Below, piece after piece: positions 1 to 20,923 of a DNA stretch of 23,353 nucleotides. Numbering within the stretch: the first letter of the stretch is position 1; every line of letters begins with the position of its first letter. The stretch lies in IMG/VR virus record IMGVR_UViG_3300027749_000483, positions 1-23,353 of that record. The stretch is one strand, 5' to 3'. This stretch comes from a virus. The translations under genes were made by a program, and so were the position numbers. Below the pieces are notes generated by a model that was given only the letters and a program-made list of their open reading frames with translations, was not told where the DNA came from and searched no databases.

Positions 1-3000
1 AAAGAAGCAAATAAGCTTAAGGCTTCTATGGAAAGGGCAGCAGCACTTGAAGCAGGATATCCAAGATGGGCTATGCAAACTGGAGGGATTCCAGGATTTA
101 TTCAAGGTCTTACCCCACTACCAATGGCAGGAGATTTGCCTAGCACCATTGTTTACGATATTGATAAGACCTTGGCGGGAAGTGTAGATTTTACCAAAGC
201 AGCAGGACAAAATACATTAGATGCTTGGGCATTAGCAGCAGAAAATGCTCCAGTAAATTCAGCAGAGTTAGCAAAGTATAATTTCCTTAAATCAATGGGT
301 CACAAAATGGCTGTTGTTACTGCTCGTGGTGCCAAGTATGACCAAATGACACTTTCTTGGCTAGAAAGCAATGGCATCAAGTTTGACGAGTTTATCTCTA
401 GACCAAATGGAGTTACATCATCAGATCCAGTATTCAAGCGTTCAGTTCTTGAAGAAATGATGAGTCGTGCAAATATTGCAGGGTTTATTGACGACAAGCC
501 CGCTAACCTAAAGATGGCTTCTAAGCTAGGTATTCCTGCTATTGAAGCAATTTCTGTAATGCCTAAGTTACAATCTGGAGGAAGCCCTTGGGTTCCAGGA
601 AGTGGAGAGGGAGATAGAATTCCTGCTATGCTTGAGCCTGGCGAATTTGTTGTAAATAAAAAAGCTGCAAAACAATATGGTGGATTACTAAATGACATTA
701 ACTTTAATCAAGCACCTAGATTCCAAAAAGGCGGAGTTACAGGATTTGATACGGGCGGAAATACTATTGAAGATATTTGGGGTGATGGTCAAAAAACATT
801 TAGAGCAGCACAATGGCAAGGACCAAGATTACCAATTGATTATGGATTTGTAACTAGAACTAAAGAACTTAACCGTCATCCATATTTTGCAACTGAAGAA
901 GAAGCAGAAGAATATGTAAGAACAGAAGTTGCAATGAAAAGTCTTTCTGATACAGAAAAAAATGAATTAAGATCTTTACGTCAATTTGTAAATGATGAAA
1001 AAAATCTAAATTATCTTGCTAGTGTTTGGCAACAAGGTTCAGCGGGAATTAGAAATCATCCAGAAAGACTAGAAGCCCTATTATCCTACTTTATGCCAAT
1101 CAAAGATGCAATGACTTTGAGAAGAAAAACAACTCTTGGTGTTCCAGGAGAAATGCCAACAGAACAACAAATTTCAATTTTGGATGCTCTTTCTTCTGGA
1201 GCTTATGACAGTATTATTGGAAAAAAGATCAATCTTACTGGTACTCCATCTGCTTATACAGAATGGGGATTTGATTGGTTAACTGCTAAAGATTTTCAGG
1301 GTAAGATACAAAACACAGAGTTTAGAGAAAATCAATTAACAAAAGCGAAAGAACAATTTGAAAGTGCAAAAAGACAAGTTGAAGCTTTAAACGACCCAAA
1401 CCCCCAGATAGCTGCCATGTCTAGAAGGTATTTGGAAGATAGATTCAGTGGCTGGACTAGTCGCAAGGGAGTTCCATTTGAAGAAAATGTAGCAACATAC
1501 TTAGATCTGCATGAAAGAGCAATTGTAAGTGCACAAGAAGATCTTGCAAAGCTTAAGCCTATGGGTAGAGAACCAAAAGAAGTTATGTTCCAAAGATTAT
1601 TTAAGCCAGGAACATCAATGCTGGATATTACAAAAATTAATCCTAATGAAAAATATCGTGGAACTACACTTATGGAAAGAGAGTGGATTACTGGTCCAGG
1701 AAATCCAACAATAGAATCTGTTTCCCAAGCATGGGTTCCACCAGATAAAATGATTGGTGGTCAAAAAGCATATCAACAAGCAATTGAAAATAATTTATTC
1801 CCATATGTATTAAATATGAAACAACGTGGTGGAATTCAGGGATTTGAAATTGGTGGAGGATATACATTAGAATCATTAGTAGATGATTGGCAACAGGGTC
1901 CTAAAAAAATTAGAAATTACCCCGAAAAACTTAAAGCATTATTGTCTAGTCTTAGTCCAATTCAAAAAAATATGATTCTTAGAAGAAAGACTAGACTTGG
2001 TGTTCCAGGAGAAATGCCTCAAGGACAACAAGTTGCTATTATGCAAGCCCTTGAAACTGGTGATTATGAAAGTATTCTTGGTAAAAGATTTAATTTAACT
2101 GGAAAGCCTTCGGCATATACAGAGTGGGGATTTGACTGGCTTGCGAGTAAAGAATTTACCGATGACCCTCAAAAATTAGAATTTGCTCGATATCAGTTAG
2201 AAGTAGCAGAAAAAAGTTTAGCTTCCACTAAATCTGCTATAGATTCAGTAATTAATCAACCAGACACAATGCACACAAAATTTGTTGCAAAGCCTTGGCT
2301 TGAAGGCAGATTTAGAGGCTGGAAAGATGACGGAACAACTTTTGAAGAAAAGATGGCTATTTATCTAAAACATAAAGAAGAAGATGTTTTGAGAGAAAGG
2401 GCAAATGTTGCTAGATTTATGCCCTATGGTAAAGAGCCAACCGATGTTATGATTCAAAGGGAATTTAAGAAGGGTCATCCAATGCTGGATGTTTCAGCAG
2501 CAAAGCCTGATGCAAAATATCGTGGCAGAAGTATAATGGAAAGAGAATGGATCACTGGTTCTAGTCGACCAAGACTAGAATCTATTTCTCAAGTGTGGAT
2601 TCCACCAAATAAAATGATTGGTGGTCAAAGAGCATACCAACAAGCAATTGAAAAGAATTTATTCCCATATGTATTGAATATGAAGCAACGGGGTGGCATT
2701 CAAGGTTTTGCTGAAGGACTAACATCTGCAACAGGCTTAAATGACGGTGGAATTAAAAATGTTTTTGCAAAAAATCAAAATTTTGTTGGTCACGAATCAA
2801 TGGAATTTGTTTATGATCTTGGAGATGACAAGGGAGTAGCACTTAAATTAATGAGGATGAGGGACGTAGAAGCTGATGGCTGGTACGTTTCAGAACTTTT
2901 TAAAAATGATGCTTCTTCAAAAACAGTTGCACAAATTTTAACTCATGCTAGAGAATACCTTCAATCCAGAGGAGAGGATTTCTCTATAGCAGCAATGTTA

Positions 3001-6000
3001 GAATACGGAAGCTATTCTCCAGATTCAAGAGCAATTATTCAAAATTTGATGAAATCTGGAAGTTTAGAAATACCTACTTCTAAATTAAAAACAAACACCT
3101 ATGACAAGAGTGCTGGAAGATATCACGCTCAAGACACAATTTGGAAAGCCAATAATATAAAAGATGGTTGGGAAAATATTCCAGAATTATCAAACTGGGT
3201 TAAAAAATACAGAGCATTTAGATCAATGCCAATTGCAGCTCAAGTTGGTGGAGGAATTAAAGGATTTGCTGAAGGATTAACATCCAAAACAGGATTGCCC
3301 GAAAGATATCTTGGCACAGAGTTTGATAATTGGGAGCAAGTGGGAGATCCTACTGGGCTACACTTCTTACAAGATCATGGAAACGGTACTGGTGCTTATG
3401 TAGGAATTAGAAATGGAGTCGAAAACGGTTATGGTGTTCCTGGCTGGTATATAGAAACGGCTATGGCTCACGGAGTACCTCAAACAGCAATAGTTGAATT
3501 ACTAGTAGAAGCAAGAAAAAAATTACAAGAATATGGGCAAGATTTTTCTATTTCTGCTATAAAAGAAGGCGGAAGCTATTCTAGTCATAGCGCACCAATG
3601 CTTTTAGCTTTAGAAAAAATGGGGTTAATTTCGTTTACTGAAGAAGAAAGGCTTGCACTACTCAACAAAGATTTGACTAAAAAGGGACCAATTGAAATAA
3701 ATGGTTTGGGCAAAGCTACTGCACAAGGATATATTACTAACACTATAGATCAGTTTAAATATGCATATGGTAGCGGTAACAATACAGATCCATTTGATGA
3801 AAATCCTGGAACAATAGAGCGAACAAAGGGTCTTCCTGACTGGAAAAAAGAATTTTTAAAGCAAAGGAGAATACCTTTATTTGAAAAAATGGGTGGCAGT
3901 ATTCCAGGATTCCAAACTGGAGTTACATCTCCTTGGGTTCCAGGAAGCGGGGATGGAGATAGGGTTCCCGCCATGCTTGAACCAGGTGAATTTGTTGTTA
4001 ATAAAAATGCAGCAAAACAATATGGCGGATTACTAAATCATCTTAATTGGGAAGCTGCTCCAAGATTTGCAACAGGTTTTACTGGGGGTATGAGGGTATC
4101 TCAGGGGGCACAAGAACTACTTAACATGAATCGTGAGCAAGATCGTGGACTAATGGTTAAGGGTGCTCCTGGAGCCTATAGTATGATGACTAGAAATATG
4201 GAAGCATTTTCTAGAGGCATGGCTAAAACAATTACTCCTATGGATGCTTATAGAACTTCTGTAATTCGTGGACAACTAGCATTGCAAGAATTCCCAGGAA
4301 AAATTAGAAAATTTTCCACAGACATTAGAAAATCTTTCACAGATAATTATCAATGGGGTAAAGGATTAAGTGGAGGTGTATCAAGTGCAATTAATACTGG
4401 AAGACAAATTGGTGCAGGGCTATTTGGAACAGCAGGATTAGCAGCAGCACAAATATCAAAAATTAAATCTGGTTATCAATGGGGTAAAGGATTAAGTTCA
4501 GGAGCTTTTGGGTTAGGTCGTGAAGCAGGTGCAGGGGCATTTGGTACTACTGGATTAGTAGTTGGACAAGCGATGGCAAATGCTCAAAAAGCATTATCTG
4601 GATTTAAAACTGGCTTGCAAAACCCAGATATAGCATTCAAAAACCTCCCTGACTATTTTAATAAAACAACTGCTGCAGCTATTAATATGGGTGCTCGTTT
4701 AAGAAATGCTGCAGATTCTATCAAAAATGGATTTAGTTCTGGTAGAGCAATGCCAGGATTTTTGGGATCGCCAGGTCAAGGAAATATGCTGGAAAGAGGC
4801 TCATATAATCTTGGAGCAACTTTAACAGCACCAATTAAATCAATAGGAACTATTTTTTCTAAAGTTTCTGGAAATATAAAATCTAATTTTATGGCTGGTC
4901 GTGGCTTAATAAGAGGTGAAGTTGCTGACGGTGGAGCAAATGCTTATATGGGTAGCACTACAATTGCTAATAGAATTAGGGGCGTTAGTGGAGGATTTGG
5001 TGCACTAGTTGGTGTTATGGAAAAGGGTGTAAAGGGAGTTCGTAGTTTTTCAACAGCAATTTCTGCGTTAAATGCTCGTCTTGTAAGTGGAGTAAATGCT
5101 GCAAATTCTCAAGGAATGACATTTAAACAGGGAATGAATATTGGTCAAGGAAAGCAACTGGTTGGAACTGGTCAATATAAGACCACAATGGTCCCTATGA
5201 CCACTACCGATAGAGGTGGAAATATAATACCAGTTCTAACTAAATCTGGCGATCAAAAAATGATAGAACAAAAAGAAGAAAATATGCGTAAGGGAACTAT
5301 GAGTGATACTAGAGGATTTAAGGGTAAAGCTGGATACATATGGGGAAAGCAAGCTGCTGGTGGAATGATGGGTATGATGGGTGGTCAGATGGCAGGAATG
5401 GCAGGAATGCAGATGACTGCCAATATGCAAGAGGGAATGACTAAGAGTACACTTAGCGGTGCAAGTATGGGTGCTATGATGGGCGGTATGATTCCAGGAT
5501 TAGGACCAGTTGGTGGAGCGATGATTGGTGCAATTGCTGGTGGAGCAATGAAAGCTTATGGTCAATGGAAAGAAAAATTAAAAAATCAAGCAGATTTACT
5601 TACTGATTCTCTCACAATGGATTCTGTTGCAATGCAACACTTGGGGGTAACAGCAAGAGATTTTTCAAATATTGTTTACAATGCTTCTGGAAAAATTGTA
5701 AAATCATCTTCCGAATTTCAACAAGGAGTGCAAGATTATAAAACTTCTCAAGATCCACTTATTGTTTCAGCTTTAAAGGGTTTGGCAGATATTGCTCAAG
5801 GTGGGGATATTACAAAAATTGAAGACTTGATGAGAGCAAGATTTGGTGGTCAACTTTTAGCAACAAATGGTTCTCCAGAAGCTAGAAAAAAAATGTATAC
5901 AGATATGCAGCAGTTTATGACTGCTGGCAATGTTGGTTCACTTACAAGACAAACTATTATTTCTGGATATAAAAATATAAAAACGCCAGAGCAAGCCCTT

Positions 6001-8199
6001 TCTGAAATTTCAAAAAATATTGTTTACGAAACACCAGAAACAGTAGAAGGATTTAAAATGCCTGGAGTTAAAACTGGAAATAGAGCTGGTGGCGGTGGGA
6101 GTAGAGATCGTGCTAAAGCAGCTGCATTCCATAATCAATCACTTGGCACTGAGTCTGCATCAGCCTTATACTCAATGCAAACAACAGCAGATCCACTACA
6201 ATTAGGCAAAGCTTTTGATAATTCAAAAGGACAAGCAAAAGATTGGATGGATTCTGTAAATAAATCTAAAGATACTTGGATAAATTTTAAGGATATTATT
6301 AAAAAATCTGACCCAGCAATGGCTCAACTTGATACTCATATGCATAATCTTGGAGTTACTACATTACAAGTAACTAGAATAAATAGTCTTTATCAAGCTG
6401 GTCTTGCTCAAATGACTGATGAACAATTAAAAGAAATTAAAGCTAATCCTACCTTGCTAACTGGATTAGAATTAGAAGCAGCAGCAAGACAATCTGTAAA
6501 CTCTACTTTTTCAGAATATCTTGCAAATGCTCAAGCACATGATGCACAAATGGCAACACAAAATTCGTCAGAGCAAAAAGCAGCCGACAAAGCTAAAGCA
6601 GAACAAGATAGATTAAATGATCTTATCGATGGTGTAAATACCTATATTGATTCTGAACAAAAAAAGATTAATAAAATTCAAAAAGAAAAATCCGCTTATG
6701 ACAGTTTAATGCAAGCCCAGGAACAAAGTATTCAAAATGAAAATACTTTAAACAATTTAAAGTCTGCTGTAACTAGAGCAAGAGCAGGTGGAGATTTGCT
6801 TGCAATGGCAGATGCTCAAGGTAACTACAATGCTGAATTACAAAAGCAAGCAGACGAAAAAGCAAAGCAAGCAAAAGATGCTAACTACGATAAGATGATG
6901 GAAAAACATCAAAACAACATTGATGCTGCACAAAATAAAATTACTGGTTACGAAAAGGCATTAAAAAATCTAGAAAAGTCTACAGCAAATGCAGCAAAAG
7001 TTGCTGGAGAAAATTGGAATATTATTGCAAGTAAAGCAACTCCTGCAACAGATGCTGTGAATGGAATTAATGATTCAGTTTATGGAACAGCAATGAAAGG
7101 TGGATGGAATAATGCTCAAGAATTATATGAAAAAGTTCTTGGAGAAGATAAAGGAATGGCTGGAAAATTAAAAAAGGCTGGAATGAAGGCTGGAGATTTA
7201 AAGAAAGCTATTTTTGATTTTGCTAAAAGTGCATCGGGTACAGAAATGCAAACTGCAAACGAAAAGATTGATGCTTTTGGCAATAAGTTAGATGGAATTG
7301 CCGATAAATCTAAACGTCTAAAGGTAGCTCAAATGCTACAAGCTACACTTACTTCTCAAATTGCTAGTGGACAACTTAAAACTAAAGAAGATGTCAAAAA
7401 AGCCATACCAAAAAATTTATCCCTGATTGAAGAATTCTATAATGTTACAGATACTGGCACTGCAACAAAAAAAGCAAAAGATGGAGACTACGGCTATTTT
7501 AATAATAAAAGAATTATGTTTTCTGGTGGAAAGTGGTACAACATGCATTTTTCCAGAAACGGTGATACAAAAACATTATTAAAGCATCAGCCCAAAAAAG
7601 GTGATGTAGTTTGGACAGATGCTAGTCATACAGATATGTACAAGTTTTCAGATGGAACAGGTGCTGTAAGAGGTCCAGGTGGACCAAAAGATGATTTAAT
7701 TCCCGCACTGATTTCAAATGGAGAATATGTTGTAAATGCAGCAGCTGTGAGTCAATATGGTACTAGATTTATGGATATGATTAATGCAAGAAGATTTAAA
7801 GATGGTTCTGGTCCATCAAGTGGTCCAGTAATGAATGATTATATGAAGTCGGATAGTGTTCATCATCAGCAAATTGATGGATGGAAATGGGATAAAAAAC
7901 AAAAGAAATATGTCCTTCCAACAATCAAGCCAAAATCAATTACAGCACTAAATGCTGTAAAGCCAAAAAATATTACTAGAATGTTTGACACTTCCGCCAT
8001 GAATAAGTCAATAAGAGTTTCTGGGCAAACAGGGGCGGGAACTTTTAATAGCACCATTAATGATCATACAGTGTATAATATAACAGTGAACGCAAAAACT
8101 GGAGCAAGTGCAGAAGAAATTGCAAGAATGATTGAAGCAAAAATGAAAAATACTCGTAAGAGTATGGGAACTCCTAGAAAACAGGGTGCTAAAGTATAA
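1..8199 (+). CDS. Tape measure protein, 5'-partial, with embedded enzyme-like modules
   Basis: The reading frame is open from nt 1, so the gene starts upstream of the window; the first in-window ATG is at nt 28, and residues below are numbered from it (2723 visible). The TMP assignment rests on size, a glycine/methionine-rich hydrophobic segment (nt ~5330-5570), alanine/lysine-rich coiled coils (nt ~6570-7000), a TMP-typical GPGGPKDDLIPA segment (nt ~7675) and a C-terminus of the YNITVNAKTGAS type (nt ~8080), directly followed by distal tail genes. TMPs set siphovirus tail length and leave the tail on infection. Unusually, residues ~38-1215 are a row of enzyme-like modules: HAD phosphatase, two ADP-ribosyltransferase-like, two GNAT-like, each behind a short GG-x-x-GF linker. 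The stop codon overlaps the next ATG by 1 nt, indicating coupled translation. TMP identity is secure; the enzymatic modules rest on motif reading. Confidence 0.93.
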   Translation, partial: KEANKLKASMERAAALEAGYPRWAMQTGGIPGFIQGLTPLPMAGDLPSTIVYDIDKTLAGSVDFTKAAGQNTLDAWALAAENAPVNSAELAKYNFLKSMGHKMAVVTARGAKYDQMTLSWLESNGIKFDEFISRPNGVTSSDPVFKRSVLEEMMSRANIAGFIDDKPANLKMASKLGIPAIEAISVMPKLQSGGSPWVPGSGEGDRIPAMLEPGEFVVNKKAAKQYGGLLNDINFNQAPRFQKGGVTGFDTGGNTIEDIWGDGQKTFRAAQWQGPRLPIDYGFVTRTKELNRHPYFATEEEAEEYVRTEVAMKSLSDTEKNELRSLRQFVNDEKNLNYLASVWQQGSAGIRNHPERLEALLSYFMPIKDAMTLRRKTTLGVPGEMPTEQQISILDALSSGAYDSIIGKKINLTGTPSAYTEWGFDWLTAKDFQGKIQNTEFRENQLTKAKEQFESAKRQVEALNDPNPQIAAMSRRYLEDRFSGWTSRKGVPFEENVATYLDLHERAIVSAQEDLAKLKPMGREPKEVMFQRLFKPGTSMLDITKINPNEKYRGTTLMEREWITGPGNPTIESVSQAWVPPDKMIGGQKAYQQAIENNLFPYVLNMKQRGGIQGFEIGGGYTLESLVDDWQQGPKKIRNYPEKLKALLSSLSPIQKNMILRRKTRLGVPGEMPQGQQVAIMQALETGDYESILGKRFNLTGKPSAYTEWGFDWLASKEFTDDPQKLEFARYQLEVAEKSLASTKSAIDSVINQPDTMHTKFVAKPWLEGRFRGWKDDGTTFEEKMAIYLKHKEEDVLRERANVARFMPYGKEPTDVMIQREFKKGHPMLDVSAAKPDAKYRGRSIMEREWITGSSRPRLESISQVWIPPNKMIGGQRAYQQAIEKNLFPYVLNMKQRGGIQGFAEGLTSATGLNDGGIKNVFAKNQNFVGHESMEFVYDLGDDKGVALKLMRMRDVEADGWYVSELFKNDASSKTVAQILTHAREYLQSRGEDFSIAAMLEYGSYSPDSRAIIQNLMKSGSLEIPTSKLKTNTYDKSAGRYHAQDTIWKANNIKDGWENIPELSNWVKKYRAFRSMPIAAQVGGGIKGFAEGLTSKTGLPERYLGTEFDNWEQVGDPTGLHFLQDHGNGTGAYVGIRNGVENGYGVPGWYIETAMAHGVPQTAIVELLVEARKKLQEYGQDFSISAIKEGGSYSSHSAPMLLALEKMGLISFTEEERLALLNKDLTKKGPIEINGLGKATAQGYITNTIDQFKYAYGSGNNTDPFDENPGTIERTKGLPDWKKEFLKQRRIPLFEKMGGSIPGFQTGVTSPWVPGSGDGDRVPAMLEPGEFVVNKNAAKQYGGLLNHLNWEAAPRFATGFTGGMRVSQGAQELLNMNREQDRGLMVKGAPGAYSMMTRNMEAFSRGMAKTITPMDAYRTSVIRGQLALQEFPGKIRKFSTDIRKSFTDNYQWGKGLSGGVSSAINTGRQIGAGLFGTAGLAAAQISKIKSGYQWGKGLSSGAFGLGREAGAGAFGTTGLVVGQAMANAQKALSGFKTGLQNPDIAFKNLPDYFNKTTAAAINMGARLRNAADSIKNGFSSGRAMPGFLGSPGQGNMLERGSYNLGATLTAPIKSIGTIFSKVSGNIKSNFMAGRGLIRGEVADGGANAYMGSTTIANRIRGVSGGFGALVGVMEKGVKGVRSFSTAISALNARLVSGVNAANSQGMTFKQGMNIGQGKQLVGTGQYKTTMVPMTTTDRGGNIIPVLTKSGDQKMIEQKEENMRKGTMSDTRGFKGKAGYIWGKQAAGGMMGMMGGQMAGMAGMQMTANMQEGMTKSTLSGASMGAMMGGMIPGLGPVGGAMIGAIAGGAMKAYGQWKEKLKNQADLLTDSLTMDSVAMQHLGVTARDFSNIVYNASGKIVKSSSEFQQGVQDYKTSQDPLIVSALKGLADIAQGGDITKIEDLMRARFGGQLLATNGSPEARKKMYTDMQQFMTAGNVGSLTRQTIISGYKNIKTPEQALSEISKNIVYETPETVEGFKMPGVKTGNRAGGGGSRDRAKAAAFHNQSLGTESASALYSMQTTADPLQLGKAFDNSKGQAKDWMDSVNKSKDTWINFKDIIKKSDPAMAQLDTHMHNLGVTTLQVTRINSLYQAGLAQMTDEQLKEIKANPTLLTGLELEAAARQSVNSTFSEYLANAQAHDAQMATQNSSEQKAADKAKAEQDRLNDLIDGVNTYIDSEQKKINKIQKEKSAYDSLMQAQEQSIQNENTLNNLKSAVTRARAGGDLLAMADAQGNYNAELQKQADEKAKQAKDANYDKMMEKHQNNIDAAQNKITGYEKALKNLEKSTANAAKVAGENWNIIASKATPATDAVNGINDSVYGTAMKGGWNNAQELYEKVLGEDKGMAGKLKKAGMKAGDLKKAIFDFAKSASGTEMQTANEKIDAFGNKLDGIADKSKRLKVAQMLQATLTSQIASGQLKTKEDVKKAIPKNLSLIEEFYNVTDTGTATKKAKDGDYGYFNNKRIMFSGGKWYNMHFSRNGDTKTLLKHQPKKGDVVWTDASHTDMYKFSDGTGAVRGPGGPKDDLIPALISNGEYVVNAAAVSQYGTRFMDMINARRFKDGSGPSSGPVMNDYMKSDSVHHQQIDGWKWDKKQKKYVLPTIKPKSITALNAVKPKNITRMFDTSAMNKSIRVSGQTGAGTFNSTINDHTVYNITVNAKTGASAEEIARMIEAKMKNTRKSMGTPRKQGAKV
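139..555 (+). other. HAD phosphatase domain inside the tape measure protein
   Basis: This is a domain, residues ~38-176, not a separate gene. All four HAD motifs can be read: DxD at D44 and D46 within VYDIDKTLAG, the motif II threonine T98 in VVTARG, the motif III lysine K137 in VFKRSVL, and the acidic pair D155-D156 in GFIDDKPANL. Spacing and the LKSMGHKMAVVTARG context resemble the 3'-phosphatase half of T4-type polynucleotide kinase and related short-cap HAD enzymes. With nothing obviously lost, an active phosphatase is plausible, perhaps on nucleic acid ends or nucleotides; the substrate is a guess. It is preceded by a GGIPGF linker at nt ~82-100 and followed by the first PAMLEPGEFVVN repeat. 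Confidence 0.8.
586..693 (+). repeat. Direct repeat, left copy, bracketing the ART/GNAT cassette
   Basis: This 108-nt segment encodes a PWVPGSGEGDRIPAMLEPG-type motif followed by EFVVN and AKQYGGLL. Base by base it matches nt 3931-4038 with about 14 differences, close to 87% identity without gaps. The protein motif is a known TMP-associated segment. A third, strongly diverged relative lies at nt ~7675-7790 (IPALISNGEYVVN). The two good copies enclose 3.2 kb holding the ART-like and GNAT-like modules. Confidence 0.85.
1027..1845 (+). other. ADP-ribosyltransferase-like module 1 within the tape measure protein
   Basis: Domain, residues ~334-606. The order of motifs follows the arginine-type ADP-ribosyltransferase fold. 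An arginine-bearing strand (LRRKTTLGVP, R365-R366) comes first. A gK-[IF]-NLTGTPSAYT segment stands where the STS strand is expected. The module ends with GTSMLDI, YRG and MEREWIT, where E550-x-E552 matches the catalytic ExE. The STS serine/threonine pattern is not canonical, so activity is uncertain. The module ends with an NMKQRGGIQGF linker at nt 1813-1845. It is clearly homologous to the following module. Assignment to this fold is inference from motif order and needs a profile or structure search. Confidence 0.55.
1888..2709 (+). other. ADP-ribosyltransferase-like module 2 within the tape measure protein
   Basis: Tandem copy of the preceding module, residues ~621-894, offset 861-864 nt. 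It keeps the arginines (LRRKTRLGVP, R652-R653), the LTGKPSAYTEWGFDWL segment and the ExE glutamates (MEREWIT, E838 and E840). The last 99 nt (2608-2706) match 1744-1842 at 89 positions, mostly silent changes, so the duplication is recent or kept uniform by recombination. The middle part has diverged much more. Conservation of the putative catalytic residues in both copies argues for selection on function. Confidence 0.55.
2760..3130 (+). other. GNAT-acetyltransferase-like module 1 within the tape measure protein
   Basis: Domain, residues ~912-1035. The order resembles GNAT strands and helices: a hydrophobic hairpin (VALKLMRMRD), WYVSELFKND where the strand before the acetyl-CoA loop is expected, then ILTHAREYLQSRGEDFSI as the following helix and strand, then SPDSRAIIQNLMKSG as the C-terminal helix. 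The R/QxxGxG/A pyrophosphate-binding loop is not visible, so if this is a GNAT fold it is probably degenerate or uses a different ligand. It is preceded by a GGIQGFAEGLTSATG linker. Fold assignment is tentative. Confidence 0.4.
3290..3680 (+). other. GNAT-acetyltransferase-like module 2 within the tape measure protein
   Basis: Domain, residues ~1088-1218, a diverged copy of the previous module at an offset of about 564 nt. Matching blocks are GWYIETAMAHG, LLVEARKKLQEYGQDFSI and GGSYSSHSAPMLLALEKMG. The linker GGGIKGFAEGLTSKTGL before it is nearly the same as the one before module 1. As in module 1, the usual acetyl-CoA loop is not apparent. Confidence 0.4.
3931..4038 (+). repeat. Direct repeat, right copy, bracketing the ART/GNAT cassette
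   Basis: Partner of nt 586-693, same orientation and same reading frame, about 87% identical over 108 nt. It marks the end of the enzyme-like part of the TMP. Downstream, the protein changes to glycine/alanine-rich tape measure sequence. Confidence 0.85.
4347..4497 (+). repeat. 25-nt direct repeat within a 42-codon tandem repeat
   Basis: A 25-nt identical stretch at 4347-4371 recurs at 4473-4497, exactly 126 nt later. It encodes YQWGKGLS and is followed in both copies by a glycine/alanine-rich hydrophobic stretch. This is a small internal duplication in the tape measure part of the TMP. Confidence 0.85.
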
Positions 8200-9122
8200 T
8201 GACTTATAATGCATTGGCGGGAATTTCAGTAGCAACATCGGCAGCTTCCACTACATTTTATCAATTAACCGATCACAATAGACAACCCATCTCTATTGAC
8301 TTTGATATAATGGAAAAAGCTGCTCGTATGGCAGATGGAACTATGAGAAAATATGTAGTTGCTAGAAAAAGAAAAGTTTCTGTAAATTGGCAGGATTTGC
8401 CATCTGGAACTGGAGTACCTGTTTCAGACTATGATGTAATTCAATTAACTCCCTCTGCAGTAGCAGATGTTTGGACAAATTCAACAGGAAATACAAATAC
8501 TGCCACTCCTGGTCAATCATATACGGCTACTGCCAATATTCGTAGAACATTAGCAACTGCAGGAAATTCATATATAAGAATTGATTGGAAAAAAGCAGAC
8601 GGATCTTCTAATGGTAACACTGGAGCAACAAATATTTTATCTATTAATAATTCTTCATGGACACAATTGAGTGTTACTGCAACTGCTCCAGCAGATACGG
8701 CATATGCAATTATTGTAGTTAATGCAACTCCAACATCTATCATAGATTATATTTATGTAAAGTCTGTAATTTTTGCGGGAAATTCTGTTGCAACTTCTCG
8801 TTTTGTTGCTGGAACAAATACAACAATTTCTTTAACTTATTTATCAAATTTAAATTCAGGATATACAATGACAGCTGATGGTAATAAGGGTGGTGCTTGG
8901 ATTAAGTCTTTTTATGAACAAAATGTATTTAAACCAATTGTTGTTAAGATTACACATTCTGTAGATAATGCTGCAACAAATTCAAGTTCAGCTTTTGTTC
9001 CATCGCCTCAAAATACTGGAGAGTCATTTAGTTGCTTTATAACAAGCTTTAAATATGATATAATTAAGAGATATACGTTGACGGATTTAGTCAATGTTAG
9101 CATAGAATTCACGGAGATTTAA
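8199..9122 (+). CDS. Distal tail (Dit-like) minor tail protein with inserted jelly-roll domain
   Basis: 307 residues. The ATG shares its A with the TMP stop codon. The N-terminal part carries MADGTMRKYV, RKRKVSVNW and LPSGTG, which I associate with actinophage minor tail proteins placed directly after the tape measure. The end, with GAWIKSFYEQNVFKPIVV and TDLVNVSIEFTEI, looks like the closing strands of a tail-tube-type beta barrel. Between them (nt ~8460-8790) lies a Ser/Thr/Asn-rich beta domain with SYTATANIRR, WTQLSVTATAPA and IIDYIYVKSV, a pattern like CBM4/9-type jelly rolls. Role inferred: connects the tail tube to the baseplate hub, with a possible glycan-binding surface. The precise family is uncertain; position and motifs support a distal tail protein. 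Confidence 0.7.
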   Translation: MTYNALAGISVATSAASTTFYQLTDHNRQPISIDFDIMEKAARMADGTMRKYVVARKRKVSVNWQDLPSGTGVPVSDYDVIQLTPSAVADVWTNSTGNTNTATPGQSYTATANIRRTLATAGNSYIRIDWKKADGSSNGNTGATNILSINNSSWTQLSVTATAPADTAYAIIVVNATPTSIIDYIYVKSVIFAGNSVATSRFVAGTNTTISLTYLSNLNSGYTMTADGNKGGAWIKSFYEQNVFKPIVVKITHSVDNAATNSSSAFVPSPQNTGESFSCFITSFKYDIIKRYTLTDLVNVSIEFTEI

Positions 9123-12100
9123 TGCTAGGTACAGCATCAACTCAGCAACTATTTGCATCATCTACAGCAATTGCTTTAATTCCCCAAGTTTGGGCGGAAT
9201 GGAATTACAACGCTCTTATTCAACCATACACAACAACATCAAGTAGTGTTAGTGAAATTATTGCATCATCCGCTTCTGCTCTAAATACCTCGTCATTTTG
9301 GAACGCAGTCGTTGACAATGGAAAATTAAATGGAACAATTGCATACACATCATCTGCATTTGGCATAAATTCTATTGTTGACACATCTGGAAAAGCATTA
9401 TCATTTAAAATTTTAAGAAAAACAGCAGTAGATTCTAATTGGAATCATAAAGGTTTAATCTATTCTTCATTTTCATCTAGTGCTATTAACTTGCCAAAAA
9501 CAAATGGTTTTTACAAATTTGTTTTTTATGTCAGAAATGATTCAGTTAATTTCACTGATGGATACCCAGCAACAATTGCTGCTTCAAATGTAACAAAAAC
9601 AGTAAGTTCTTCTATATCAACATCATCCTATTATTATCGTGTTGTTGGAGTGGGAGCAGATAATCAATCACCAGGAATAGATTTTGTTAATAATTCAGAT
9701 AGAATATTTGTTCAGCCAGCAAGTAATGCTAGTGTGACTCTTTCCTGGACTGCAGATCCAAAAGCATTATCCTATAGAATTTACAGATCTACGTCCCCCA
9801 AATCTACAGAATATAGAACATCAACTGTAAGTTCTTCGTATGTCGATAGTGTAAGTTCATGCCTTTCTCAGTCTTATGCTCCATATTTAAATGCTCACAC
9901 AAGTGTTGTTCCAATAATTTCTGGAAGTGATTCTGGAGGCAATTCAGTTGGAACATCTTTCTATATTAAAAGCTCTGACACATCTGTTGGTACTCTTTCA
10001 AATAGGAATAACAACATTGATGTTGTGCCAGATGTTTGGAAAAAAGTTGAGCTATGGTTTACTGTTAATCCAAACACAGCAAGTGCTTTATCTAAAGTAA
10101 GTTTGAGTTTTGACATAACAGCAGATTATGAAAATACTTCTGTTGCTGTAGATAATATTACTCTACATCAAGTGTCCGAACATGACTACTACTTGAATGA
10201 ATTTTATTCTACATCATCCCCTTTTGAACCATTAAGACCAGGAGAAGCATTTACTAATGTTTTGATGCCAAATGAAGATAAGATAGTGCATGGATATGGA
10301 ACGGCTTCTTACAAAAAGCCAGCATCATTTGGAGTAAAGAGTCCACAAATTTTAATTGAAAAAGGAACAACTAGTCCATTTATTCAAGTTTTGCCATCAC
10401 AAGATGATAAATTTACTTATTATATTTCAGATTCAACCGATAAAGCAATTCAAGCACAGTATGATAGATACATGTCCATCAATAAAATTGTATTGAAATA
10501 TAATACATCTTTTAATACAATTTCTTCTGGATCCATACTTCTGTATACGGGATCTGCAAATACTTTAACTAAAATTTCATTATCAGCTGGTGATTTTAAT
10601 GATAATGGAGTAACTGTTTTATATTATAATAGTTCAAGTTGGTCTACTACACCTTGGGATGCACCACCCCAATTAGATTCATATGGAGCATTACAAAATG
10701 TAGTTAGTCAAGTTAGAGGTATTGGTTTTGTTGCTGGAACTATTACTAAAAAAACAAAATATAGCACATTTTCAGATAGCGGGGATTTTTCAAAAGCACA
10801 TATTATTGAACTATCCCCTAGGTTAGAACTAGATTTATCTCCAGAACTTATTTCGTATGATTGCAAAAATGAACTTAGCTCACAAACAACTGACGGTTTT
10901 CCAATTTCATATATCAATGCAAATGCTGGAAATTTAACTTTTTCAAATATTCCTTTATATCAATCAGATGGGTCATCTGCTGCAACCATTTTTGAGAATA
11001 GGTCAAAAAACGCAACATTCTACAATTTACTAAGGCAAGGAATTAAATTCAATTGTTTTTTAAAGTCCCCAGATTTTCAGAAAGATTTAATTGAAAAAGT
11101 TCCACAATTTGTTTTATATTCAGATTCTTGGCAAATTAATGATATTGGTGAAGTTTCAGTTTCACTGTATGATTACATGAAAGTTTTTGCACAGTCAGCA
11201 GAATCTCCAAGATATGCTTGCGACAACAGTAATTTATTTAATATTATCACTACATTATTTGCAGTATCAGGGTATAGTGATTACGATTATGATGCATTAC
11301 TTAACATTTGTGCTGGTGCTACCGAAACATCATATTTTTGGTTTGATGAACAAAAAACAGTATTTGAAAATTTACAAGAGTTATTTATTGTACATCAAAT
11401 TGGGGCTTTCATGGATGAGTATGGAATCATGAGATTTAAAAGCTTGTCTCAAATTTTTAAACAAATAAACTCATCTAATTTTTATGCAAATTTTCCAGTG
11501 ACAGATATAAACAAAACTGTAGGTTCATCAAATATTAACTATATTCCAAATTTAATTCCAAGTTCATATAGCGAAACAATATCTGAAAAAGTTGGAAAGG
11601 TTATTGCTAGATATACACTATCTTTAAGAAGCAATAGCATCGATAATTCAGGAAAAGACGGGACCTCAAGATCATCTGATACTACCACTACCGCATGGTA
11701 TGAAACTGAAAATATTGCTTTACCAAGTTTTTATTTAGAAGAATCTTTATACAAGGCTCAAAATTATATCAGTGTTCCAAAAACAGTTATTAATGGTAAA
11801 AATATTAGACATTCTTTGGGAAATTTTTCAGGAGAGCTTTTAATTGGAAAAGAAATAGTGTCTTATGCTGGTGCTGAATATATTTTTTATGGAGCAAACT
11901 CATCTTCTCCAGTATACATAGCTAGAAATGTTCAGCAACAATCAGACATTGATGATGGAATTGCAGAGGTTAATAGATTATTAATTGATCAAATAGATAA
12001 TAGGGTTGACTATTATCCAACTGGAAAACTTCTTAATATTTCTCGTGGCTTGTATGGAACAAGTGCTGAAGACCACTTAACATTAAAAACAAAAAATGAG

Positions 12101-13648
12101 ATTGGAAATTCTATTACATCATCTTTTAATACCTACATATATAATGAATCAAATGGAGAAATATCAAATGTATCTAATGCGCTTGACGCATCAAATATTG
12201 GACTTTCTTTAAGGTCTGCTAAAAATAATCAAAGAGTTTTACTTTCTCCAGTTATTAAAGATTCAGATTATAATTTTTTTGCAGTAGACTTTCAAGTTCC
12301 AGTATCTGATATAACAACAAATTTTGGTCAAAAAATTCTTAAAGCTGCGGGAAGCAAAAAGCAAAAAGCTAAACGTGTTCAAACACTACAAAATTCTCAG
12401 CATTCACAAGACCTTGAAGTTGGATTATTTTTTAATCTTAACAATAACTCTACAATAAATAAAGCTAAAACATCTAGTGCAACTTATTTTATTTCTTTAC
12501 AACTAAACAATATTTATGGGAAAAAAGATGAGTATACTATGGCTATTTACAAGCAGTCAGAAACAACAAAAAAATTAGTACCAGTTGGAAAAACAAATGG
12601 ATCAGCAGCAAAAAATATTTCAATATCAGCAATATTTGATGGAAGAAATAGTGAATATTCTAATAGTGAAACTGGATATCATCGATTGTCTGTTTATGTT
12701 CAAGGGTCGTATTTGAAAGTAGCCATTGATAATATTGAAATAGCAACGGTTCAGGGAACATTTAATAATTTAACTGGATCTGAATTTGGCTTCTATATGA
12801 AGAATACTACTGCTCTAAAACCAAAAGCTCATGTAAAAATTCAAGAAATTTATGCAGACAAGGTAGTAGAAGATTTAACTAGAAAAGTAGGTGCGATAGA
12901 GTTTGACGTTTCTCCAAGATATTATTTCTTAAGTAGAAAATATTTAAATAATCTTGTCAACCATATTCCAATCAATACATCTCCATACTTATTTCAAGCA
13001 AATCCACAGGTACGGGGAATAAAATATTACGATGTTAAAATGTCGGGAACTCCAATTTATTCTAATACTGCTGGATTCTTGCCACATGTTTATGGAATTG
13101 TTAATAGTGCTAGAGCTAATAATGAAGTTAGTAAAACTTTAGGTCCTATTAAAAATAGTGATTTACAATACTCTGACCTTTTTTGTGATCCATTTAATGC
13201 AAAATTTGTTGTTGTAAACAATACAAATGAATTAGTTCCATTAAGTGATAGCAATAATAATGAAGTTATTCCATTAAGTATTCTCGCAAAAGTTTATCAA
13301 AAAACATCTGAAAGAATTATTGAAAGAGTTGTTGATTCTAATCACATAAATAATAGTAGAGAAATTCAAATAAAATGGGCAAATAATAAAAATGAAGTAG
13401 AAAAAATATTAAATTTAATGCAAAAATCTTTAGACAGTTTTTACTCAAGCATTAATGTATCCATATTTTACAACCCACTTATTCAAGTGGGAGATTTTGC
13501 TCAAATAAGTTACTCTTTGAAGAGATTGGGGTATGACCCTGCAGACCCCACAGTAACTCCTATAAAATGTTTAGTAACATCAGTTTCTCACAGCTTTAGC
13601 GAAGGATATTCCACTACAGATCTTATCTTAAAGCCTATAATAATTTAA
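9122..13648 (+). CDS. Baseplate hub / tail-associated (Tal-like) protein with FN3 and LamG-like domains
   Basis: 1508 residues; ATG overlaps the previous stop by 1 nt. The N-terminus has IPQVWAEWNYN, a segment typical of actinophage tail-tip proteins. Residues ~155-247 look like an FN3 domain (YYYRVVGVGADNQSP, VTLSW, YRIYRST). Flanking segments (residues ~40-150 and ~270-355) look like a jelly roll ending in VAVDNITLHQ. Residues ~580-800 are the probable hub core. Residues ~1100-1250 resemble a concanavalin/LamG-like sandwich (YHRLSVYVQGSYLKVAIDN). The C-terminal NPLIQVGDFAQISY, CLVTSVSHSFS and STTDLILKP match the end of Tal/gp27-type hubs. Likely role: tail-tip hub that closes the tube and contributes to receptor contact. 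No peptidase motif was noticed. This is the last gene before a short gap with a promoter-like element. Confidence 0.75.
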   Translation: MLGTASTQQLFASSTAIALIPQVWAEWNYNALIQPYTTTSSSVSEIIASSASALNTSSFWNAVVDNGKLNGTIAYTSSAFGINSIVDTSGKALSFKILRKTAVDSNWNHKGLIYSSFSSSAINLPKTNGFYKFVFYVRNDSVNFTDGYPATIAASNVTKTVSSSISTSSYYYRVVGVGADNQSPGIDFVNNSDRIFVQPASNASVTLSWTADPKALSYRIYRSTSPKSTEYRTSTVSSSYVDSVSSCLSQSYAPYLNAHTSVVPIISGSDSGGNSVGTSFYIKSSDTSVGTLSNRNNNIDVVPDVWKKVELWFTVNPNTASALSKVSLSFDITADYENTSVAVDNITLHQVSEHDYYLNEFYSTSSPFEPLRPGEAFTNVLMPNEDKIVHGYGTASYKKPASFGVKSPQILIEKGTTSPFIQVLPSQDDKFTYYISDSTDKAIQAQYDRYMSINKIVLKYNTSFNTISSGSILLYTGSANTLTKISLSAGDFNDNGVTVLYYNSSSWSTTPWDAPPQLDSYGALQNVVSQVRGIGFVAGTITKKTKYSTFSDSGDFSKAHIIELSPRLELDLSPELISYDCKNELSSQTTDGFPISYINANAGNLTFSNIPLYQSDGSSAATIFENRSKNATFYNLLRQGIKFNCFLKSPDFQKDLIEKVPQFVLYSDSWQINDIGEVSVSLYDYMKVFAQSAESPRYACDNSNLFNIITTLFAVSGYSDYDYDALLNICAGATETSYFWFDEQKTVFENLQELFIVHQIGAFMDEYGIMRFKSLSQIFKQINSSNFYANFPVTDINKTVGSSNINYIPNLIPSSYSETISEKVGKVIARYTLSLRSNSIDNSGKDGTSRSSDTTTTAWYETENIALPSFYLEESLYKAQNYISVPKTVINGKNIRHSLGNFSGELLIGKEIVSYAGAEYIFYGANSSSPVYIARNVQQQSDIDDGIAEVNRLLIDQIDNRVDYYPTGKLLNISRGLYGTSAEDHLTLKTKNEIGNSITSSFNTYIYNESNGEISNVSNALDASNIGLSLRSAKNNQRVLLSPVIKDSDYNFFAVDFQVPVSDITTNFGQKILKAAGSKKQKAKRVQTLQNSQHSQDLEVGLFFNLNNNSTINKAKTSSATYFISLQLNNIYGKKDEYTMAIYKQSETTKKLVPVGKTNGSAAKNISISAIFDGRNSEYSNSETGYHRLSVYVQGSYLKVAIDNIEIATVQGTFNNLTGSEFGFYMKNTTALKPKAHVKIQEIYADKVVEDLTRKVGAIEFDVSPRYYFLSRKYLNNLVNHIPINTSPYLFQANPQVRGIKYYDVKMSGTPIYSNTAGFLPHVYGIVNSARANNEVSKTLGPIKNSDLQYSDLFCDPFNAKFVVVNNTNELVPLSDSNNNEVIPLSILAKVYQKTSERIIERVVDSNHINNSREIQIKWANNKNEVEKILNLMQKSLDSFYSSINVSIFYNPLIQVGDFAQISYSLKRLGYDPADPTVTPIKCLVTSVSHSFSEGYSTTDLILKPIII

Positions 13649-13681: not shown

Positions 13682-14152
13682 ATGATTGATGAACTAAATG
13701 GGTTTTCTATAGAAAATTCAGAGAAATTTGTAAATCCTGCATCCATACCATCTAAAAGAGTTATTAATATTTATCGTGATGACCCAAGAAACAATCCAGA
13801 TTATATATCTAATTGTGGATTTGCAATAAATATCATTGATGGGGATAACCCTGTTGCTGACTTAGACGTAAAAGTTTCCTCAGTTTTTACTGGAGAAGGC
13901 TCTAATCCAGAACAACATATCTTAGAAAATAATAAAACAGATAGTCTTAACACAGATAGATTAATTTCTGTAGATCAAACATCTACCCCACTAGCTTCTC
14001 CACAAAATATATATTTAAGTCCAACATCATGGCAGCTAGAAGATTACTCTTCTGCAGGAAATGGATCTATTAGATGGGTAGCATCTTTATATTTTGATGA
14101 TGTAGTTGGCGCATCCGAATACGAATACACATTGAATGCGAGAACAAGTTGA
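13682..14152 (+). CDS. Small structural protein ending in a half FN3-like domain
   Basis: 156 residues, with a strong GGAGG site at a spacing of 6 nt. The bulk of the protein is not recognised. Its last ~45 residues (SPQNIYLSPTSW, NGSIRWVASLYFDD, GASEYEYTLNA) read like the first strands (A, B, C) of a phage FN3 domain, and the protein then stops where the second half should follow. The missing half appears at the start of the fibre gene at 15102. Its position between the hub and the fibre suggests a baseplate or fibre-attachment role. There is no signal peptide or membrane segment. Confidence 0.7.
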   Translation: MIDELNGFSIENSEKFVNPASIPSKRVINIYRDDPRNNPDYISNCGFAINIIDGDNPVADLDVKVSSVFTGEGSNPEQHILENNKTDSLNTDRLISVDQTSTPLASPQNIYLSPTSWQLEDYSSAGNGSIRWVASLYFDDVVGASEYEYTLNARTS

Positions 14153-15102
14153 TAAAAGGAAAATATGTAATAAAATCAGGCGATGAAGTTATAGCCGAAA
14201 CAGAAAATAAAATTATGGCAAAGGGAATTGAAGCTATAAATCTATACCTTACAAACGGAATTGCTGATTGGGCGGGATCTATTGGATATGGGGCAACAAC
14301 AGAAGCAAATACAGCATCTAACATCACATACTTAAGGTATGAATTAGGAAAAGCTGTAGTTTCTAGTAAGACTTACCTAAGTGCTTCAAATCAAATTGTT
14401 ATTAAGGCAAGTATCCCAAATACTTTTTCGGGAGAAGTTTATGAACTTGGAGTATTTCCAACAAATATTGTTTCTGGAAATAAAGACGCTTTTGTTTTTA
14501 CTAATTTTGATGAGATATTATCTAGCACTGGAACTGGGTCAAGTGCTTGGTTGCAAGGATCTTCAAATCTTTCTAGCAATAGTGCTGCTTCGTTGAGTGC
14601 AACATCTAGAGCAAGTGCTTCTAGCATTTATGTCAATACGTCAAGTGTTTTATCTAACTTTTCAATTGTTGCAGATTTAAGTGATTACACTTCTTCGGAC
14701 AGGTTGCATCTTTTATATTATGTACCAACGACGGGATCTGCAGCAATTCCTGCAAGCATAACTTTTACATTCTATGATAGTAACTCTGCCAGTTGGTCTT
14801 CTAGTGCAACAGCCCTTGATCAAACTAGCCCTGGATTTAAATATACATTTATTAGTATGCAAGCCCCAGATCCATACTGGAGTGGAGTTGTTACTAATAT
14901 AACAGCAAGTTTTGCTAATAGTGCTAACTCTTCTAATAAAAATATTGTATTTGATGCTTTAAGGTTTAGAGAAAATGCAACAACAAAACCAATTGAAAAT
15001 ACATTAGTAAGTAGAGCTATATCAACAAGTTCAACTGTTCCAATATTTTCAACAACATATGGACAACCACTACAAATTGAGTATTACTTAACGGTGTCGT
15101 AA
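14149..15102 (+). CDS. Baseplate/fibre-associated structural protein (TTG start)
   Basis: 317 residues. The TTG at 14149 overlaps the previous TGA by 4 nt. I prefer it to the ATG at 14215 because the domain begins at once with KGKYVIKSGDEVIAETENK, a pattern common at the start of phage baseplate/fibre proteins, followed by GIEAINLYLTNGIADWAGSI and IGYGATTEAN. The C-terminus (TYGQPLQIEYYLTVS) fits the end of the same family. A Ser/Thr-rich jelly-roll-like insertion (nt ~14500-14980; WLQGSSNLSSNS, ITFTFYDSNSASW, NIVFDALRF) sits in between. Low initiation efficiency of TTG plus the overlap suggests translational coupling with the upstream gene. It apparently interrupts the FN3 reading shared by its neighbours. 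Structural role likely; exact function unknown. Confidence 0.7.
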   Translation: MIKGKYVIKSGDEVIAETENKIMAKGIEAINLYLTNGIADWAGSIGYGATTEANTASNITYLRYELGKAVVSSKTYLSASNQIVIKASIPNTFSGEVYELGVFPTNIVSGNKDAFVFTNFDEILSSTGTGSSAWLQGSSNLSSNSAASLSATSRASASSIYVNTSSVLSNFSIVADLSDYTSSDRLHLLYYVPTTGSAAIPASITFTFYDSNSASWSSSATALDQTSPGFKYTFISMQAPDPYWSGVVTNITASFANSANSSNKNIVFDALRFRENATTKPIENTLVSRAISTSSTVPIFSTTYGQPLQIEYYLTVS

Positions 15103-18100
15103 TGGGTTTTATAAATTTAACGGGTCTTACTCCAGGAAAAACTTATGATATTGCAGTAAGAGCAAAAAGCCCAGATGGTGTTGTTTCTGGCAATTCTATT
15201 GTTTATACTTTTACCGCCCCATCTACAAATATTGATGGAACACAATTAGTTGCAACTAATCAATCTGTAGTTACTGCTCTTGCACCAAGTTCATCAAGTG
15301 TTACTGGTGGAGCATTAATTGCTGGAGGTTTAGATGCAAGTGGTGCTGCTGCTGCAGGTGCATTAAATCTTGGAAGTGTTTGGAATGGAACAGCAAGTTC
15401 TATATCCAAATTAACGGGCACAGCAAGCACTGGGGCGGTAGTTATAAATAGCACTGGTATTCTAGGATACCAATTATCTTCAACATCTTCAGGACAGGCT
15501 AATTTCTTCCTTGATACAGCATCAGGTAATGCTTATTTTAGAGGAACTGTATATGCTAATGCAGGACAAATTGGCGGGTTTTTAATTGATACTACTAGCC
15601 TATCTGCAAGCAGTATGTATTACAATAATCTATCTGCTTATGATCCATCATTTGAAGATAATTGGCAAGATTATTGGGTGGCATCTGCCACCATGTCAGT
15701 TTCCGCTGAAGAATTTAAGTTTTTTGAATTTCAAGATAATTCATCTCTTACTCCACAATCATCACTTGCCTATGCAACAGTGCATGCAGCAGCAGCAAAT
15801 ACTCCATCACTTGCAGTACGAACTGCCACATTGTCTGCAAGTAGTTTTAAGATGGTTATGTATAAAAATGCTGCATCAGCAATAGCTTTTTCAAATTCAG
15901 ATTTAGGAATGACTATAGGAAATTCTTATATTCTGTCTGCTTATGTTTCAAAACCTACTTCAGCATCTGCATCAAATTCAAATAATATATATATGCAAGT
16001 AAATCGATATAATGCTTCAGTTTCTGGAACTCTGACAGGAAGTTGGACTTCTTCAATAAGTCCGATTACCAGTAGTTCTTGGACAAGATTGTCCGTAGTG
16101 CTATCTCCATCATCTTCTGAGTATTACACAATATCTATCGCTGACCCAGATGGTCAAAGCAATACAGGAAGAGGTTCAGCAGTAGAGGCAACATTCTCTG
16201 TTGATTCAATTCAATTAATAAGTGGAACAACTTTATCTCCATATGGATATAGCAATCAAGTTGTTATTAATCCATCAAGCAATATTCCAATTAAACTTAG
16301 TTCAATAAATAATGATTCTACCCTAACTAATATTTTTAGCGTTTACACGGATGGAGGAATTCTTGGAAATTATTTTTATGTAAAAAAACAATCTAAAATT
16401 AATGATATTTATTTTGGTGCTAAAAATATTACAAATATTTCTATTGGTGATTTTAATTCTACTCATCAAAAAAATACAAGCGGTAATAATATTAATATAG
16501 GAATTAGTACAATGCCATTTCATGTCAGTGGTTCAAACAACGTACTAATTGGAACAAATGCGGGATATTTCTTGCAATATGGTTCAAACAATGTAGTTAT
16601 TGGTGGTGCAAAATTAAATTATGCTACAGATGGAAATGTTGTAATTGCCGATGGTGCTGGTAATATTAGAATACAGGCAGATTCTACAGGTCTTGTAACA
16701 ATTCCAGGAAATGCATCTGTAACTGGAAAGATTACTGCTGCTTCATTTGTAGGAAATGGGGCGGGACTTACAGGAATTACTGTAACTGCATCAGCTACAG
16801 GTTCTATTACTATTGGATCTACTTTAATACCTTTGAATACTACAACAGCATCTCTGGGGGGTCTGACAAAATTTGACCTTACAGATAATACATCTTTTGC
16901 AAATTTTTCAGTTTTAACTCAGGCACCCAACATATATGGTGGACCCATAAGTTTAAAAACACAGGCTAACAGTTCAGGTACTGGCACCTCTACGGGTGGA
17001 GGAATCACTATTGAAACAACATCTACTGCTACAAATACTTCAGGCGCAGGTGGCGGATCAATTAATATTCAAACTAATGGAAACTCTTCAGGTGTTGCTA
17101 TTGCACAAGGTGGAAATATTGATATTTTGACATCAAAAAGTGGTAGCACTGGGACATCTGGTTCTATATCTATAATCTCTAACAATAAGTTTTTAATATC
17201 AGCTATTGGAAATTCAGGATCAATTGATAACTTTAGGATAGGTGCCACAACTCCTAGAGATGGAAACTTTTCAGATATTGGTTTGATTTCTCCAGGAACT
17301 GGATACTTTACATCTGGATCCTTTACAAGTTTAACAATTAGTAATTATGCAACAATTACTCTTGGAACAACTCCAACAGCTGCTGGGCTTGTTATAAAAA
17401 ATCAATATCTTAATCAAACCGCCAACCTTTTTGAATTAAAAAGTTACACATCATCTGTAGCAATTTTTTACTTTGACAACGATGCTAATCTTTTTTCTAA
17501 CAGAACTGCTTCTTTTACAAAAAATGTAACGGCTTCAGCATTTGTTGGCAATGGATCTTTGCTTACCAATATAACAGCTTCTAATATATCTGGAACTGTG
17601 GCAAGTGCTACAAATTCTTCAAGTGCAGGATATGCAGCAAGTGCAGGATACCTACCAGTATCTGGATTATCCGCATCTACAATTACAATTGGTTCTACTG
17701 CAATTGGATTGGGTAGTACCACAGCATCTTTGGGTGGAATAACAAGTGTGAGTATTTCTTCAGGTTCAGCAAATCCTCTTACAGTAACAAGTGGTGTTGC
17801 ACAAACTAATTCAACTGGCGGAACAATATCTTTATCTACATCTGCAAATGCTACAATTAATGCAACTCCAACGGGAGGTAATATAAATATTTCTACAAGT
17901 GCTGCTGGATCTGGCATGGGTCTTGCGGGAGGTGGAAATATTACTATTCAAACTACTGCTACAGGAACTGGTACTCCTGGAAATATTACAATCTCTGCTG
18001 CTTCTGGATTTACTCCTGGAACAATAAACAATTTTAATATTGGTGCAACAACTCCAGGAACTGGAAACTTTACTGAATTAACTATAAGTGGGTCATCTGT

Positions 18101-20255: not shown

Positions 20256-20667
20256 TATTACATTAACCGCTGCAGATATTAGTGGTTTGCAGAGTGCAAA
20301 ATATATTGCACTACATAGGTTAAATACTAATCAATTCCTTTTTGACGGGAATGGAACAGCACCATTAATTGGAGATAATTCTACAGGGATTAAAGTTTAT
20401 GCATCATCTCAAGTAAATAGCAGTATGGGAAACAATAGTGGAAAAACAAATCAATTTGTGTTTGATTATTCAGGTCTAAGTTTATCAACTAATCCTGTAA
20501 TTACAGCAACACTATCTGCAGAAAATGATCTTTCTGCCTATAACCCAAAAATTACTGTTATCAATGTTTCCCCATCTGGGTGCACAGTAGTTGTTAATAT
20601 GAGCAATATATCTAGTGCCAAAACACTTTCTGTTAGATGTAACTTAATTGCTATTGGATATGCCTAG
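20245..20667 (+). CDS. Putative virion protein with H-type-lectin-like C-terminus
   Basis: 140 residues, starting with GTG at 20245 behind a clear GGAGG (20232-20236, spacing 8 nt) and overlapping the previous gene by 11 nt. The sequence is beta-rich with many Ser, Asn and Thr. The C-terminal part (ITVINVSPSGCTVVVN, then SVRCNLIAIGYA) has the rhythm of the end of H-type-lectin-like domains in phage fibres, where a strand with ftv is followed by a final strand containing AIG. A small adhesin or decoration protein is the best guess. There is no signal peptide or membrane segment. Confidence is good that it is a gene and low for function. Confidence 0.65.
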   Translation: MADNITLTAADISGLQSAKYIALHRLNTNQFLFDGNGTAPLIGDNSTGIKVYASSQVNSSMGNNSGKTNQFVFDYSGLSLSTNPVITATLSAENDLSAYNPKITVINVSPSGCTVVVNMSNISSAKTLSVRCNLIAIGYA

Positions 20668-20923
20668 CTATAAAGTTTTGAAATCGTGGGTCAAGAGAGA
20701 TTCTATGATTTCAAAAGAAGGGTATATCTTAATTAAAATACCAGAGCATCCCAAATCATTTAGGGGCTGGTATTATGAACATAGGTTAGTAATAGAAAAA
20801 AAGCTTGACAGAATACTAGAAGTATGGGAAACTATACATCATATAAATGAAAATAAAACAGATAACAGAATAGAAAATCTATTCCTCTGTACCAGAGAGC
20901 AACATAACAAAGCTCATAAGTAG
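20660..20923 (+). CDS. Free-standing HNH endonuclease (HNH_3-like)
   Basis: 87 residues from the ATG at 20660, overlapping the previous stop by 8 nt; the frame is open to a TTG at 20648, which I consider less likely. The HNH signature is complete: EHRLVIEKKL, then ETIHHINENKTDNRIENL with H60-H61, N69 and N73, then REQHNKAH with H82. This matches small HNH_3-type homing endonucleases of phages, which nick or cut at specific sites and spread between related genomes. A preceding GYILIKIPEHP strand pair is typical of the family. There is no long DNA-binding extension. It is placed between virion genes and the phosphoesterase, with no intron border seen. It ends 11 nt before the next ATG. Confidence 0.88.
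   Translation: MPSYKVLKSWVKRDSMISKEGYILIKIPEHPKSFRGWYYEHRLVIEKKLDRILEVWETIHHINENKTDNRIENLFLCTREQHNKAHK

Follow-up and report, generated by a model that had tools for sequence, protein, structure and literature searches.

An FN3 domain divided between two tail proteins, with a third tail gene at the cut, in a large group of tailed phages

Few modules are as common in phage tails as the FN3 domain, and each copy is usually regarded as one intact bead in a chain. The fold consists of the sheets A-B-E and C-F-G, with C'/D; strand B is the partner of E in the first sheet, and strand C that of F in the second. In chaperone-usher pili, donor-strand complementation, in which an incomplete Ig-like subunit fold is completed by another subunit, gives a tight non-covalent joint. 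At the tail tip, FN3 domains described as single-chain join the hub and the central fibre in the T5-like siphophage DT57C (PMC10713586), and lambda gpJ has two of them after its hub domains (PMC10721106). Division of the domain has been described for a monobody, an engineered FN3 domain; according to PMC11666773, which cites Dutta et al. 2005, cutting in the CD loop at Asn45/Ser46 gives two peptides that refold and bind the target, with melting near 45 C as compared with 78 C for the uncut form. Among open-licence papers we found no description of a split FN3 domain of the kind reported below, and a homologous cassette with the identical split and gene order, gp39-gp40-gp41 of Streptomyces phage Annadreamy (Stanwilliamsviridae), is annotated only as a hypothetical protein, a tail protein, and a minor tail protein, with a fibre that continues into several complete FN3 domains.

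The window, by which we mean the whole stretch of DNA analysed, is a virus record from a metagenome, 23,353 bases long, and the features of the locus are collected in Table 1. The three ORFs, here called A, B, and C, occupy one frame each and three frames in all, and they confirm the layout of the original prediction, in which a complete third-frame gene lies between the two parts of an FN3 domain with overlaps of 4 and 1 nt at its borders. Protein A ends, after a strand-C-like segment, with ...NGSIRWVASLYFDDVVGASEYEYTLNARTS and its stop; protein C begins with MGFINLTGLTPGKTYDIAVRAKSPDGVVSGNSIVYTFTAPS, in which a strand-E-like segment is followed by LTPGKTY; and of the segment that would lie between strands C and E (the C'/D region) little remains at the cut. 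Ends as abrupt as these could reflect an assembly error or a wrong start codon, especially in a sequence of metagenomic origin; the same junctions are present in isolate genomes, which refutes this reading, and because there is no in-frame start codon 5' of C in any of the 17 loci checked, the truncated start of C is not a mis-called one.

Table 1. Features of the divided FN3 locus in the window.
Feature	Position	Strand	Evidence
Protein A, 156 aa	13682..14152	+	ORF; aligned with 14 homologues
Protein B, 317 aa, TTG start, phrog_9983 tail protein	14149..15102	+	ORF and profile match
Protein C, fibre, 1508 aa	15102..19628	+	ORF
FN3 half 1: A residues 107-156, strands A, B, C	14000..14149	+	Profile alignment, predicted strands, dN/dS
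FN3 half 2: C residues 1-42, strand E, LxPGxxY corner, strands F, G	15102..15227	+	Pfam fn3 below cut-off, profile alignment, AF2
A/B overlap, 4 nt, TTGA (ATGA or GTGA in most relatives)	14149..14152	+	
B/C overlap, 1 nt, TAATG	15102..15102	+	
Tail hub / minor tail protein directly 5' of A, phrog_10359; probable anchor of A	9122..13648	+	

The same arrangement of A tail, B, and C head is shared by phages of Streptomyces (Stanwilliamsviridae), phages of Rhodococcus, and relatives from aquatic samples. A tblastn search with the window B led to Streptomyces phages, whose own B proteins in turn matched 127 Streptomyces records and, more weakly, Rhodococcus phages. Annadreamy gp39 ends with VVDVVIELEDVAGATEYDVRMTKA and its stop, gp41 begins with MSRILLRDLEPGRLYHIQARATNG, and the cassette is likewise placed after hub genes; the split is also seen in Faust, Wakanda, Coruscant, Karimac, Cursive, BillNye, Enygma, Ankus, Mandalore, Francesca, NiceHouse, and Trina, and in the aquatic virus contigs L004, L005, L007, L022, L023, and L024. 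Most of these relatives share 15–40% identity with the window, and the cut site is the same in each homologue read. In all of the 29 loci compiled the fibre start has a partner tail, with B always between the two, and thus no fibre homologue with the same start and no partner half, a finding that would have spoken against the original prediction, was encountered among them. The split is a real and general feature of a large and ancient group of tailed phages.

Alignment with a 93-column reference, built from intact FN3 domains that occur in the fibres of these phages, places the two ends in complementary parts of the domain. A profile built from 29 tails covers columns 1–41 and the head profile columns 55–93, without overlap; the tail profile is in the right FN3 register with a score of 14.84 that was reached by none of 199 column shuffles, and the hhalign probability of its match to FN3 is 2.4%, weak in absolute terms. 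Strand B of the tail usually has F or L in place of the FN3 tryptophan, and the LxPG motif is found in most of the heads in the 29-locus compilation. When tail and head sequences are joined, the halves present the strand order A-B-C followed by E-F-G, with the LxPGxxY corner before F, and three of five joined relatives pass the gathering cut-off of 25 bits for Pfam fn3 (PF00041, model length 84): L005 (25.8 bits), L022 (27.3), and L023 (26.2) do so, and L024 (22.0) and Francesca (23.0) score below it. The corresponding heads alone give 21.2, 20.5, 23.1, 20.3, and 22.1 bits, and heads joined to shuffled tails 20.7, 20.5, 22.6, 19.8, and 21.3 bits, in the order L005, L022, L023, L024, and Francesca; a Pfam scan of four tails alone gave no match. 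The matches of the joined relatives cross the junction: that of L022 spans fn3 model positions 6–81 of 84, and that of L023 contains a large insert, making it the least clean of the three that pass.

The window itself is a weaker case, as its joined pair scores 17.5 bits in a match that starts near the junction, and its head alone matches model positions 52–74 with 14.3–16.8 bits, also below the cut-off; the joined Annadreamy pair, at 20.8 bits, likewise falls short. The division of an FN3 domain between the end of A and the start of C is thus borne out by the profile columns and by the joined relatives that pass Pfam, and the further claim that the joined halves form one normal FN3 is supported at the level of sequence by those three relatives; the window pair stays below the cut-off. 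Against solved structures, the joined profile aligns almost without gaps across the junction with prolactin receptor FN3 D2 at 29.9 bits, as compared with 23.0 for heads alone, and several higher-scoring PDB entries match mainly through the head; the sequence comparisons thus suggest that the tail adds a modest, though consistent, gain. At the level of sequence, two separate chains have ends that jointly make up one predicted FN3 domain.

The two ends are also under selection. When the window is compared with L004, the tail has a dN/dS of about 0.17 and the head one of about 0.16, and the rest of A has 0.28; in the tail dN is 0.077 and dS is 0.456, and the tail is 84% identical where the rest of A is 68% identical. 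Tail and head are both under purifying selection, with similar constraint. These observations bear on the possibility that B entered an FN3 gene and that what we see are left-over ends with no joint function, since such useless ends would have decayed, and the FN3 pattern and length of both have been kept through deep divergence. Although it is true that the joined halves make one FN3, and that B sits exactly at the cut with the short overlaps an insertion would leave, no fused relative was found either: in a tblastn search with the joined halves against 50,697 phage records, the search for fused genes that the original prediction had proposed, none of the matches listed had the two halves in one piece. 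We consider a functionless relic of this kind quite improbable. It is possible that an insertion first produced the split and that the split now has a function; no relative with a fused A-C gene or an empty site was found, and no evidence that would polarise the change, and because B lies between the halves in all groups, any such event predates the whole set.

A further reading of the geometry is a programmed bypass of B, giving a full-length A-C protein as a minor product with a continuous FN3 domain. There is nothing beyond the geometry to recommend it, and the gene for B is complete and conserved, with a length of about 0.8–1.1 kb. The overlaps also vary from one relative to the next, some having 4 nt, some 1 nt, and some none, and the frames are not fixed, so that a common bypass signal is unlikely, and we regard this reading as very improbable indeed.

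Protein B matches phrog_9983 with an E value of 1.9e-13 (residues 23–315 to positions 3–270 of 273), and all homologous loci read have it between A and C. It seems to be a common N-terminal tail domain into which a variable, beta-rich region is set, the last strand of the protein closing the domain. We found no relatives of B in bacterial genomes, and no convincing solved relatives of either A or B.

Protein A has a conserved N-terminal segment (KFVNPxSIP...DDPRNN), a poorly conserved linker, and the C-terminal FN3 half. The window A has no match to phrog_11696 (unknown function) at an E value of 0.1; Annadreamy gp39 matches it at 5.1e-31 and the Francesca A weakly, through its tail, at 0.0066. 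AF2 models of A and C were built on shallow alignments of 15 rows. In the model of A, pLDDT is 67–83 at residues 21–60, about 36–45 in the linker, and about 49–62 in the tail, where strands are predicted at residues 110–112, 118–121, 130–138, and 147–153; in the model of C, strands F (14–19) and G (33–38) form a hairpin with pLDDT of about 77–85, and E is unpaired. A Foldseek search of both models against the PDB gave no match with an E value of 0.001 or lower, which models of such low confidence would lead one to expect. In these models neither half appears as a confidently folded, complete domain, although low pLDDT values are weak evidence on this point when the alignments are shallow, and the alternative that each half is a different complete domain was not seen: the tail has low-confidence strands and the head an F-G hairpin.

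The halves could also act separately, with the head of C completed by the C-terminal strand of B, by a second copy of C, or by the hub, and the tail of A binding elsewhere. A conserved strand does lie at the end of B (for example IEYYLTV), directly before C, and in phage lambda proteins of the tail tip are known to augment one another's beta-sheets (PMC10721106). The end of B is a single conserved strand, with no equivalent of strands A-B-C; these strands, absent from the head, are present in the tail of A in FN3 register, and tail and head always occur together. Separate action thus seems unlikely. We favor instead the pairing of the two halves because the cut is constant, the ends are under purifying selection, neither shows a confident fold of its own or the signature of a different domain, and fibre starts are accompanied by partner tails. 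The original prediction had offered insertion and pairing as two readings; pairing is the one favored by these data, and insertion is a possible origin. From the sequences we consider it likely that the halves assemble into a composite FN3 domain that fastens the fibre to A non-covalently.

How such a joint would work follows from the position of the cut. Because it falls between strands C and E, each sheet of the sandwich would be built of strands from both A and C proteins, and reassembly would interlock the two chains; either half alone would lack a full core, and the halves would be expected to co-fold on assembly. The fibre would then be fastened non-covalently to A through the composite domain, and the conserved N-terminus of A would probably sit on the hub protein encoded directly upstream, with the variable linker between, giving the order hub, A N-terminus, variable linker, composite FN3, and fibre. 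Protein A is presumably an adaptor on the tail hub. Its gene directly follows that of the hub-like protein with the phrog_10359 match, in which no Pfam FN3 match was found.

Comparison with the described systems reveals both likenesses and differences. As in the split monobody (FNfn10; PMC11666773), one FN3 is cut after strand C, and co-folding is expected in the phage pair; unlike the monobody, the phage cut is natural and conserved, it separates two virion genes with a third between them, C'/D is largely absent, and binding is predicted. With C'/D missing, the phage pair may be of lower stability than its engineered counterpart. In DT57C and lambda gpJ, too, FN3 domains sit where the hub meets the central fibre (PMC10713586, PMC10721106), but each of theirs is described as belonging to a single chain, and the one described here is divided between two. 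Pilins of the chaperone-usher type lack one strand, whereas each member of the phage pair has approximately half a domain, with about three strands per side rather than a single donor strand, and neither chaperone nor usher is seen. Taken with the spread of the split, the sequence evidence makes it fairly likely that this is an ancient natural device for fibre attachment, in which reassembly of an FN3 domain cut at a fixed site holds two structural proteins of the virion together and a third tail gene lies in the cut.

A more distant aquatic group (L056–L070 and L071–L097) was found with the Rhodococcus and Streptomyces B alignment. The A/B/C order is kept, and C starts mid-domain (MAEIRIPVEKLPPPDKNGDHAFQFRIISVDKNQWSAWSQLY). 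The profile of these heads scores 23.6 against the main-set heads, which none of 150 shuffles reached, and in the comparison with FN3, too, none of 150 shuffles reached the score of the heads. A corresponding A end lies upstream in 25 of 27 contigs, the other two ending before that point; these tails are weakly related to those of the main set (1 of 150 shuffles, and 21 of 150 against FN3), and Pfam recognised no FN3 in the head, the tail, or the two joined. By sequence the distant group may be counted for the head and for the gene order, but not yet for the split. Its A tail seems longer by a C-C' like hairpin (IDTNGTIYKVES), and the cut site may therefore be slightly later. B shares mainly its first ~110 residues with this group, and C is short in L056–L070 (e.g. 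L058:6146-6724), mostly about 190–200 aa, with 599 in L060.

Some features of the neighbouring sequences are also noted. The window, L004, and L007 have almost the same C-terminus of the fibre (GALVYSASFASASAISFNNVFSSSYTNYKI...), with a middle that varies in its length and its repeats, and the L005 fibre has a different C-terminus, which suggests exchange of modules among these fibres. The tape measure ORF (28–8199) has at its N-terminus a match to a phosphatase domain of the HAD type (PF25109/PF03767) that falls narrowly short of the cut-off, with E values of about 2e-5 to 3e-5, and it contains a repeated motif, SPWVPGSGxGDRxPAMLEPGEFVVNKxAAKQYGG. The protein that follows it (8199–9122) is 307 aa in the window and 172–177 aa in L004, L005, and L007, the window copy having an extra internal ~130 aa of beta-rich appearance, perhaps an insert of carbohydrate-binding type. 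An HNH endonuclease at 20648–20923 (PF13392, E 5e-11) corresponds in place to the annotated HNH endonuclease of Annadreamy, which precedes the metallophosphoesterase of that phage.

For annotation, the short "hypothetical protein" that precedes B should be read with care, as its end is predicted to be half of the fibre's first domain. If the pairing reading is correct, the two genes would encode a snap joint that explains how the fibre is fastened to the hub, and it would be a natural counterpart of the engineered split FN3 domains; it would also limit which fibres these phages can swap.
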